Shown in pieces: positions 61,183 through 63,991 of a stretch of 64,000 bases of DNA; position 1 is the stretch's first letter; every line of letters starts with the position of its first letter. The position numbers and the translations under genes are program-made. Source of the DNA: Aureimonas sp. AU22 (lineage in GTDB: Bacteria > Pseudomonadota > Alphaproteobacteria > Rhizobiales > Rhizobiaceae); NCBI RefSeq assembly GCF_001463745.1, contig NZ_BBWJ01000048.1:62001-126000 (forward strand), given 5' to 3'. The notes below the pieces were generated by a model. It saw only the letters and a list, made by a program, of their open reading frames with translations, did not search any database and was not told the DNA's origin.

Positions 61183-61193
61183 AGGAGGACGAC

Positions 61194-61741
61194 ATGGAGC
61201 CCACACGCCGACGTCGGGCCGGAACGGCGCCCGGTGCCCGTGCCGGGATGCTGCTGATCGGCGGCGCCCTCCTTGCGGGCGCGTGGGCCGTGGCGGACTG
61301 CCGGGATCCGGCCGCTTGCGCCGGGACGGCGGACAGGGCAGCCCCTCGCTTCGGCACACGCATGGCGCCGGGCCCGGACGAGACGATGGCCTCCGCCCTC
61401 ATCGGAGCGGCCGTGATCGACCGGCAGGGCGAACGCCTCGGCACGGTCGGCGACGCGGTCCTGGACCGCGATCTTCGCGTGGTCGCGCTCGCGGTCCGGG
61501 TCGGTTGGTCCTCGGCGTGACCACGCGCACGGTGGCCGTCCCGATCGGGGCGGTCCATCCCGAGGGGGATCGGGCGACAGTGCCTGGCGACAGAGCCGCG
61601 CATGAAGGGGGCCTGGCCGCGACCCTCGACGCCCTGATGGCGGGCGGCGCCCCGGAGCGGGGCGACGCGCGAACGCGACGCCTCGTCAGCGACCTCTCCC
61701 GGGCCGAGCTGCTGGCCGCCCCCGAGTTCAAGACCCGATAG
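61194..61741 (+). pseudogene. PRC-barrel domain protein gene split by a frameshift
   Basis: ATG 61194 follows a strong ribosome site (aaaggagg). The first frame gives an N-terminal membrane/signal segment (AGMLLIGGALLAGAWAVA) and the first half of a PRC-barrel: ALIGAAVIDRQGERLGTVGD, then VVALAVRVG. It then stops at TGA 61518-61520. The second half continues in another frame from about 61502 (LGVTTRTVAVPIGAVH) through a C-terminal tail ending LLAAPEFKTR at 61741. One missing base near 61503 explains the break. PRC-barrels are envelope or RNA-binding adaptors with no fixed role. A sequencing error is possible. Confidence 0.7.
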
Positions 61742-61824
61742 ACGTGCTCGCCACCCCATGATCGGGCGGCTGGGAATCCGTATCGAACCCCGGTGCGGAA
61801 AAGCCAGCCTTTACCCTCAACGCA

Positions 61825-61960
61825 TGTGGCTGAAAGGAATTAGGCCGTTCGACCCCTCAGCAACGTCAATCGCTTAGCCGAATCCTGAAAGGGATTGGAA
61901 AAAGGCTAATTGGATTAGGCTGACCGCCCTACGGCTTCTAACGGGATTAGACTAACTGCC
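61825..61960. repeat. AT-richer cluster of iterated GGATTAG-type repeats
   Basis: Four direct copies of a motif like CTGAAAGGRATTRG / CTAAyGGGATTAG lie at 61830-61843, 61885-61898, 61906-61918 and 61938-61950. A related inverted copy (cttagccgaatcc) is near 61873-61885. Several copies continue into RCTRAC (gattaggctgac, gattagactaac). The block is much lower in GC than its surroundings and codes for nothing. It looks like a protein-binding array, such as transposon-end or iteron-type sites, and lies between the kdp locus and a tniQ gene. The function is not established. Confidence 0.6.
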
Positions 61961-61993
61961 GATTCCGGGCGCTTGGAAGCCCAGTGCGACACC

Positions 61994-62404
61994 TCAACGC
62001 CCCGGCCGGATGCCCGGCTCGTAACCGCCCAGCGGGAGGTCGTCGATGGTGTCGGCATGGTCGTCGAAGCGGAACGTCCACGCGCCCTTCTGGCGGGCCA
62101 TGCGCATGGCCGCGACGAAGCCGTCCGAGTGGCCGAGTTCCGAGAGCTCGGCCATCCTGGCCTCGAATTCGGTTTCGTGCCGATGTGTCCAGAGACCGAC
62201 CCTGTGCAGGGTGAACCCGTTATCCGAGTCGACGACGTTCTGGGGATCGCCCCAGCGGGAACCTTGCAGGAGTTCGGCGTCCTCTGGCGTCAGGTGCGTC
62301 GATGACACGACCATGCGCGGGTAGTCGCGGGTCCTCTCGGTAGGGTACCGACGTCCCATGCGCTGGTTGACGAAGTCGATGTTCAGCTTCCCGGGCGGCT
62401 TCAT
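61994..62404 (-). CDS. Hypothetical accessory protein (136 aa)
   Basis: ATG 62404 has a near-perfect ribosome site (aggaggaattc). The soluble 136-residue product has the motif VVSSTHLTPEDAELLQGSRW, then DNGFTLHRVGLWTHR and a helical RMAELSELGHSDGFVAAMRM. The STxHLTPE-type motif recalls DUF5983-like proteins carried by mobile elements, but I am not sure. It lies between the repeat cluster and tniQ, on the tniQ strand, 86 bases downstream of tniQ, so it may be cargo or an accessory gene of the same element. Confidence 0.6.
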   Translation of the reverse strand: MKPPGKLNIDFVNQRMGRRYPTERTRDYPRMVVSSTHLTPEDAELLQGSRWGDPQNVVDSDNGFTLHRVGLWTHRHETEFEARMAELSELGHSDGFVAAMRMARQKGAWTFRFDDHADTIDDLPLGGYEPGIRPGR

Positions 62405-62490
62405 GAATTCCTCCTGCTTTGGAGGAAACCTTCCGCTCGGCACCGCAAGCGACCAGCGGCGCCAACGCCCCGCTGCGGGCGGCAAGCATT

Positions 62491-63684
62491 TCAGGCCGCG
62501 GCGGTCGTTCCGTGGAGCCTTCCCTCGATGTCCTCGCGCAGGAGCCCGTAGAGGTGTCCGTCCGTGTCACCATCCGCGAGCAGACCCTCCGCCCGCGCGA
62601 GCGCCAGCATCTCCTTGGGTCGGATGCCCAGCAGTTTCGCCGCGTGTCCCGCGGTGATCCGGCGACCGGCCTCGACGCCATCGCGGAACACCGTCTCGCC
62701 GAGATCCAAAGGGACGTGCTCGACGATGTAGGCGCGCATCGCGTCGCGGAGGACCGCCCTGACCTCCTGATCCGCGCGTGCGCCCCGGTCGTCGTAGAGC
62801 CTTGAGTAGTACCGTCCGAACCGCCCCTTGAGCCCGCGGACGTTGGCGGGCGCGCGTTCTTGCAGGGTGCGCAGAAGGGCGTTCATCCCGTTCGGCCAGT
62901 CGAGGCAGGCTTCCAGTCCCCTGGAGCGCAGGTCGGCGGCTTGGTCGAACGGAAGCCCGCGCGCGTAGTTGGCCCGCGCCCCGCTAACGACGACCTCGCC
63001 GACCCAGTTGAGAACCGCGGAGGCCTCGCCCAACGGCAGCGCGTCCAGGAACGGGACATCCACGCGGGGCATCGCGCCGAGGCGGCCCAGGAGGTAGCCG
63101 TCCGCGCTTGTGTCGGACGGCGGGACGGCGGCGGCCGGAGCCTCGCAGAGGCCGCCCCAGTAGGCCCGAAGCCTCGCCTCGTCGGAGCGGTCGGGAGCGA
63201 GGACGCGCCCCCCGCCCGACACCGCCGACAGGGTGCAGAGGTGGATCGGGCAGGTGTAGACGTCCAGCACGTTCCACCACGCGCGCACGTACGGCCTCTG
63301 CACCTTGGGTCCCCCGTCACGGTCGGCGAGGTCCGCCCGCAGGCATTCGGGACAGGCGCGTACCCGCCGGCCGCTCCCGATGCCCAGCGTCATGTCGTGG
63401 GGCGTCCTCAGCACCTCGCCGCGCAGCGTCACGCGCGTGTTCCCGATGTCCGAGGGAGTCCAGGACGCCAGCGTCCCGGCCTCCCGTTCCGACAGCTCCA
63501 TCAGCACGGCCAGCCTGGCGTTCGCCCTGCCGCGCGCCACGTCGTTCAGCCGGAGGGCAAACATCGCCGCGAGTTCGCGCTCGCTCGCGAGGCCGATGCG
63601 CAGGCACGTCCGCCCGAGCGCGGCGATCGCGGGCTCGCCATCGCGGGGGCGTACCCGGAGGGGGAATCGGTCGAACGAGTCCAT
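62491..63684 (-). CDS. tniQ: TniQ-family transposition targeting protein
   Basis: 397 residues from ATG 63684 (an in-frame upstream extension to 63867 looks non-coding). The opening FPLRVRPRDGE is typical of TniQ. A zinc motif, ACPECLRADLADRD (C111, C114) followed by YVRAWWNVLDVYTCPIHLC (C145, H148), is the TniQ signature. The C-terminal third has a helix-turn-helix-like segment (RRITAGHAAKLLGIRPKEML). TniQ/TnsD proteins direct Tn7- and Tn5053-like transposons to target sites. The partner transposase and ATPase genes (tniA, tniB) are not visible before the window ends, so it may be an orphan or part of an element that continues to the right. Confidence 0.8.
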   Translation of the reverse strand: MDSFDRFPLRVRPRDGEPAIAALGRTCLRIGLASERELAAMFALRLNDVARGRANARLAVLMELSEREAGTLASWTPSDIGNTRVTLRGEVLRTPHDMTLGIGSGRRVRACPECLRADLADRDGGPKVQRPYVRAWWNVLDVYTCPIHLCTLSAVSGGGRVLAPDRSDEARLRAYWGGLCEAPAAAVPPSDTSADGYLLGRLGAMPRVDVPFLDALPLGEASAVLNWVGEVVVSGARANYARGLPFDQAADLRSRGLEACLDWPNGMNALLRTLQERAPANVRGLKGRFGRYYSRLYDDRGARADQEVRAVLRDAMRAYIVEHVPLDLGETVFRDGVEAGRRITAGHAAKLLGIRPKEMLALARAEGLLADGDTDGHLYGLLREDIEGRLHGTTAAA

Positions 63685-63947
63685 GATGCGAATCCCATCG
63701 TTTGGCCCTTTCGAGCACGTCGTGGCTGAACGAAGGATTGAGACGGCGGACCGACAGGCATGGCGCGGCCACGAGACGGGCCGAGCGGAACCCCGAAGAC
63801 CGGGAGCAGCGTGAGGAACGGCACGCGGGCAGGCCGCTCCGGCAACCGGGAAACGATGCAAGCGCATCGGACGCAGGGACCGAGGAGTCGCTCAAGACCA
63901 GCGCCATGCTGCCTGGCAGCCGCTTGCGCCGCGTAATTCCGCCCCAT
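63685..63947. other. Gap upstream of tniQ without a recognisable gene
   Basis: Open frames here read as compositional artefacts (runs of Arg, Ser, Pro). No TniB-like ending or Walker motif is seen. It probably contains the tniQ promoter. The ribosome site before ATG 63684 is weak. Confidence 0.4.
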
Positions 63948-63958
63948 AAAAGGCGAAA

Positions 63959-63991
63959 CCCCGGGAGGGGCGCTGAACGCCTGTCCCGGGG
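63959..63991 (-). terminator. Rho-independent terminator of a minus-strand gene lying beyond the window
   Basis: A GC stem (ccccggga with tcccgggg, extended by partial pairing of gggcg with cgcct) is followed on the minus strand by TTTCGCCTTTTAT. It implies that a gene to the right of position 64000 ends here and that tniQ is transcribed separately. Confidence 0.65.

Follow-up and report, generated by a model that had tools for sequence, protein, structure and literature searches.

The DNA from position 61825 of the window onward is very probably the left end of a Tn7-like cut-and-paste transposon, which is the best explanation for the sequence found there. The window is the whole stretch of 64,000 nucleotides that was analyzed, corresponding to C48:62001–126000 of a draft genome (4.63 Mb, 85 contigs; G000, hereafter the source genome); contig C48 extends 2,185 bases past the window end (to 128185). 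An opposite tip, TGTGGCGGGAAGGGATTG, is located in the same draft genome at C51:34241, 26 bp after the stop codon of gyrB. What had appeared as a patch of repeats can thereby be described as a mobile element with two defined tips, a duplicated target site, and an identified neighbor gene. The features of the window are as follows (window positions, strand, description).

about 61193–61741, plus: host flank gene after kdpE, outside the transposon, split over two frames here
61820–61824, plus: ACGCA, target-site duplication copy beside the left tip; its partner TGCGT is beside the C51:34241 tip
61825–61851, plus: transposon tip with the first candidate transposase-binding-type site, TGTGGCTGAAAGGAATTAGGCCGTTCG (from the end of Leaf324 homology and the sequence)
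61874–61891, plus: inverted copy of the candidate binding-type site, TTAGCCGAATCC core (from repeat search and site comparison)
61906–61928, minus: candidate binding-type site, GGATTAGGCTGA core (from repeat search and site comparison)
61938–61960, minus: candidate binding-type site, GGATTAGACTAA core (from repeat search and site comparison)
61994–62404, minus: DUF5983 gene, end-proximal cargo (PF19419, E 2.3e-10)
62491–63684, minus: small tniQ, 397 aa from ATG (PF06527, E 1.7e-7)
63959–63991, no strand: inverted repeat rich in G+C, located between tniQ and the divergent gene that follows (visible in the sequence)

The left tip, TGTGGCTGAAAGGAATTAGGC at 61825, is bracketed by two comparisons. 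In a DNA search, homology to Aureimonas sp. Leaf324 (G009; 84%/81%) stops exactly at 61825, and both the window and the array-bearing Leaf324 contig (NZ_LMOH01000010.1; 37,460 bases) start with TGTGGC at the homology border. On the host side, the kdp flank is 86% identical to that of another Aureimonas genome (G008) through kdpE and the next gene, and this match stops at 61790, which is 34 bases outside the tip. The switch from host DNA to element therefore lies between 61790 and 61825. The original prediction had let the accessory region begin at 61742; the transposon starts at 61825 instead, and the repeat array does lie there, ending near 61960. The damaged gene reported after the kdp locus is real in the sense that it occupies two frames in the window and a single open frame in G008, and the break may be due to decay or to sequencing error. 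Beyond the kdp flank, G008 continues into other genes. This downstream flank was rejected as the empty site, since the source genome has no DNA match to the initial 1.5 kb (dapA-like by eye), and more distant parts match C33 and other contigs. Copies of a gene near the G008 kdp flank are present on C4, C51, and C40, with 81–86% DNA identity.

The low-GC iterated motifs noticed originally are evident on closer measurement: GC is 0.52 and 0.51 in 100-base intervals at 61801 and 61851, compared with 0.68–0.78 at 61401–61701. A finer repeat search identified 23-nt copies at 61906 and 61938 that are 78% alike and a 12-nt pair at 61830/61885, and an inverted core is present at 61874. The copies are degenerate but real; the array is absent from the Tandem Repeats Finder list and from a first repeat search (seed 9). 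Matches to TTAGCCNAATCC with at most one mismatch show no genome-wide excess (12 in the source genome, compared with 16 for the reversed control; 12 in Leaf324, control 13), and it is their clustering that places the array beyond chance, as three of the 12 fall within 82 bases at the array and five of the 12 in Leaf324 fall within 155 bases. An inverted 36–37-nt end unit occurs three times in Leaf324 (L029 404–512) and once in the window (61874), so that the number of end sites varies. The array would be a row of binding sites for the TnsB/TniA transposase of the element itself.

The array has a narrow distribution. A DNA search of 151 genomes yielded matches in four, namely the source genome, Leaf324, and two genomes (G034 and G030) whose matches (E 0.006 and 0.008) were discarded as short; the array is convincing in one of 150 relatives. 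In an order-level draw of 397 genomes it was found in the source genome only (1/397). The conserved kdp–array–tniQ order that the original prediction had named as the sign of ordinary synteny is thus not found in these samples. A two-site pattern scan of the GTDB species-genome collection gave four matches, among which Leaf324 alone is real; those in Faecalibacter, a MAG, and Pantoea were discarded because no further core lies nearby. The window array has no match in plasmids, the Leaf324 array has none in plasmids or phages, and two DNA patterns have none in IMG/VR.

The opposite end on C51 resembles the left end in its organization. Its tip likewise starts with TGTGGC and has a GGATTAGGCTGA core 53 bases in, with further sites inward; GGATTAGGCTGA-type sites are common to both ends, and the sites of both ends align in register. 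All nine non-array core matches of the source genome, and one of the seven in Leaf324, were fetched, and the C51 site scores 22.8 on the site matrix; the other non-array sites of the loci compared reach 16.6 at most. Only 14 of 20 bases are identical between the two tips, and one of the sites at the left end has the inverted orientation; a tip pattern allowing three mismatches missed the C51 end, which has four. The gene beside the tip is gyrB according to NCBIfam (1221.6 bits, with a cut-off of 796); parE was rejected as its identity, as the NCBIfam parE models score below their cut-offs.

The 5-bp flanks, ACGCA before the window tip and TGCGT before the C51 tip, are reverse complements, which is the 5-bp duplication expected at two facing ends. 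Both the distant matching end and the 5-bp duplication foreseen in the original prediction are therefore present. The C51 place was chosen by its site before its flank was examined. When 38,019 plus-strand TGT pairs were compared (69 TGT positions in the last ~15 kb of C48 and 551 on C51), 181 agreed at 14 or more of 20 bases, the threshold being the level of agreement in the left tip/C51:34241 pair itself, and among these 181 that pair alone also has matching 5-bp flanks. At this base composition, a chance flank match for one pair has a frequency of about 1 in 600, and about 0.2–0.3 pairs with shared flanks are expected by chance among the 181 loosely alike ones.

The insertion lies just behind the conserved gene gyrB, and as a single insertion it is insufficient to show a dedicated site. 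gyrB is absent from the 10–18 kb downstream of kdp in all four relatives inspected (G007, G008, G016, and G018), so the gyrB–kdp neighborhood is not seen in relatives, and the empty site anticipated by the original prediction (here gyrB–kdp lacking the insertion) was found in none of the four. In G016, other genes come after gyrB, and no insertion lies immediately behind gyrB. The missing gyrB–kdp order may reflect a species-specific gene order or a later move of one flank, the latter being disfavored by the matching 5-bp flanks.

Contig C51 also carries, toward its right end, the tns/tni genes, in the order tnsA–tniA–tniB–tniQ, that the original prediction expected to the right of the window:

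C51:91181–91945, minus: tnsA (PF08722, E 1.1e-9, above cut-off)
C51:88675–91167, minus: tniA (phmmer E 5.3e-36 to a TnsAB fusion and 8.6e-14 to Tn7 TnsB)
C51:87572–88675, minus: tniB (PF05621, E 2.9e-30)
C51, in the operon: large tniQ, about 610 aa (PF06527, E 1.8e-11, with a C-terminal helix-turn-helix, HTH_17)

TnsA also has a phmmer match to a TnsA–TnsB fusion (E 6e-4), and the rve match of TniA is below the Pfam cut-off (21 versus 32.6 bits). The operon is ~51 kb from the gyrB-side end. Together with the opposite end and the duplication, these genes bear out the proposal of a left end at the array, with the element running past 64 kb. The tniQ gene of the window had been taken for the last gene of a tni operon; it is instead the second, small TniQ of the element.

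C48 and C51 probably belong to a single element, whose known parts amount to 62 kb (4,361 bases on C48 and 57,923 on C51), with a gap in addition. This assignment is based on an XRE gene at the end of C48 (L004 5226–5552), which is 57% identical over 89 residues to genes of the Aureimonas elements in G015 and G002, each of which lies within 1 kb of a TnsA-like match; in G015, a second TnsA-like frame is on the other side. The contig ends have no exact overlap, so the join is inferred, with a gap or further contigs separating them. The order would be left end, DUF5983, small tniQ, an unknown gene, XRE, gap, tnsA, tniA, tniB, large tniQ, cargo (about 50 kb), right end, and gyrB.

The gap between C48 and C51 leaves room for another reading: the array would terminate a degenerate or non-autonomous relative, a second copy of the same family would supply the C51 end, and the flanks would match by chance. 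Leaf324 has such a remnant, and TniA and TnsA were not found on its 37-kb contig by tblastn, and the 181 loosely alike tip pairs provide material for coincidence. Against this, array and core searches of the source genome reveal one array plus the C51 site, and the matching flanks and the XRE link also speak against it; this reading is improbable. Still less probable is a role of the array as regulatory DNA or as an RNA gene of DUF5983. That gene adjoins the array in both the source genome and Leaf324, but the homology stops at the TGT tip, and similar sites occur at C51:34241; the called gene closest to them has neither a Pfam family nor a PADLOC match. An RNA is further disfavored by the absence of any Rfam match (E up to 1) and by the folding results: in the window, neither strand (z -0.45 and +0.54) folds better than shuffled sequences, and z is -1.6 in Leaf324. 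Ordinary chromosomal intergenic DNA beside a stand-alone tniQ, which the lack of adjacent tniA/tniB in the window might suggest, is a negligible prospect given the array's convincing presence in the source genome and Leaf324 only (among four of 151 genomes matched), the G008 kdp flank that runs on into other genes, and the two ends with a 5-bp duplication.

For the Tn7-like transposon, transposition would proceed by TnsB binding to the end sites, TnsA and TnsB cutting at the tips, and TniB bridging. The large C51 TniQ, which has a helix-turn-helix, would direct insertion behind gyrB, and the small TniQ would serve a second target route or be accessory.

The small gene beside the array was predicted with no family; it is present and belongs to DUF5983. 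A DUF5983 remnant of 68 residues, 87% identical, lies beside the Leaf324 array, and the protein has no match in plasmids and one relative (31%) in IMG/VR. The neighboring gene is of the TniQ family, as predicted; its product matches nine plasmid records at 24–35% identity and has no match in the PDB. A terminator had been placed just upstream of tniQ, and a terminator scan of window 63600–64200 scored none, the inverted repeat in that region being visible in the sequence. The gene divergent from tniQ (L004 4062–5078) has no Pfam family above cut-off and a weak PADLOC match to PD-T4-5 (E 2e-6). The gene at the very end of C48 is incomplete, running off the contig. No resolvase family was found in the scanned genes next to tniQ, and the scans named no tnsE.

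The C51 part of the element contains defense-type cargo, with PADLOC matches to PD-Lambda-2_B (E 8e-133) and to a type II restriction-type system (E 3e-19), as well as Vsr, C5 methylase, and metal-handling genes. The proteins of C51:64664–66889 and 67787–70501 have strong PADLOC matches (PD-Lambda-2_B, E 8e-133; PDC-S06, E 5e-49), and a heavy-metal P-type ATPase gene is located at C51:58548–60767. Pfam, applied to TniB and to 48 of the 56 interior ORFs (script-called ORFs, C51:34.2–92.1 kb), identified no Cas gene. A PADLOC match of TniQ to a “CAS-I-F associated” model was set aside as not distinctive because all six TniQ proteins match it.

On sequence grounds the element is assigned to the Tn7-like class, with TnsA, TnsB/TniA, TnsC/TniB, and TniQ/TnsD, TGT...ACA tips, a 5-bp duplication, and an array of ~20-bp sites at each end; it adds to this known class of mobile elements, with defense-type and metal-handling genes. 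Tn7 inserts 25 bp behind glmS. Like Tn7, the element has TnsA, TnsB-type, TnsC/TniB-type, and TniQ/TnsD-type genes, several ~20-bp sites per end, TGT tips, a 5-bp duplication, and an insertion shortly behind a conserved gene; unlike Tn7, it lies behind gyrB, has two TniQ proteins and no named tnsE, and its tns operon is ~51 kb from the gyrB-side end. The original prediction of a Tn7/Tn5053-like element stands for Tn7, given the presence of tnsA, and not for Tn5053. Tn5053/Tn402 (tniABQR) likewise has genes of the tniA/tniB/tniQ type and ends marked by repeat arrays, whereas the present element has tnsA upstream of tniA and a gene end as its target. parE and gyrB are paralogues. PMC8649781 gives three sites at the left and four at the right end of Tn7, and describes arrays of ~20-bp repeats as a general mark of Tn7-like ends.

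In some type I-F3 CRISPR-associated elements, according to a 2024 review, a TniQ directs insertion next to parE (PMC11406308). Tn7017-type I-F3 elements resemble the present one in having two TniQ proteins, one of which directs parE insertion in the same account (PMC11406308), and differ in that the target here is gyrB and the interior ORFs scanned are free of Cas genes. With gyrB as the neighbor, the parE site published there would be extended to a paralogous gene. The words gyrB and gyrase are absent from the text of that review, and no report of gyrB as a Tn7-like insertion site was found in the open-licence literature; in excerpts of its Tn7-like, gyrB, and TniQ papers, gyrB is a tree marker or an unlinked mention. 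Searches of the same literature found neither Aureimonas with Tn7 nor Tn7-like with TniQ and TnsD in alphaproteobacteria.

The spare small TniQ makes the element a possible case of a second target pathway. Among the 151 genomes, the best relative of the window tniQ is the second tniQ of an operon in G015 (30%), and the C51 tniQ is 37% identical to the first. Four GGGATTTATG units lie 230–350 bases behind the second tniQ of G015 and nowhere else on its 79-kb contig; the G015 layout is therefore a second tniQ followed by an array, as at the window, with another repeat. For the other end of the G015 element, six flank candidate pairs were considered and none accepted, and none was found by tip. 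Tentatively, the lineage might home to the gyrB 3′ end via the large helix-turn-helix TniQ and use the small, CRISPR-free TniQ beside DUF5983, at the far end, for another target route not yet described (e.g., plasmids or phages), which is possible and rather less than probable.

Other TniQ-bearing stretches are found in these genomes. In G016:C1 (L033 7720–8300), one such stretch starts with TTGACGCGCATAAAGCT repeats; it was rejected as a gyrB insertion, being 2.2 kb from gyrB, inside a rhodanese-like gene (by eye), and with another repeat. The source genome has a second tniA–tniB–tniQ operon at C40:11367–17357 (L006 5367–11357), which is probably another Tn7-like element. Ahead of this operon is an ORF of 283 aa that matches nothing in Pfam or NCBIfam, and the low-GC DNA behind the operon's tniQ contains TGAGGCAAACC-like repeats (by eye).
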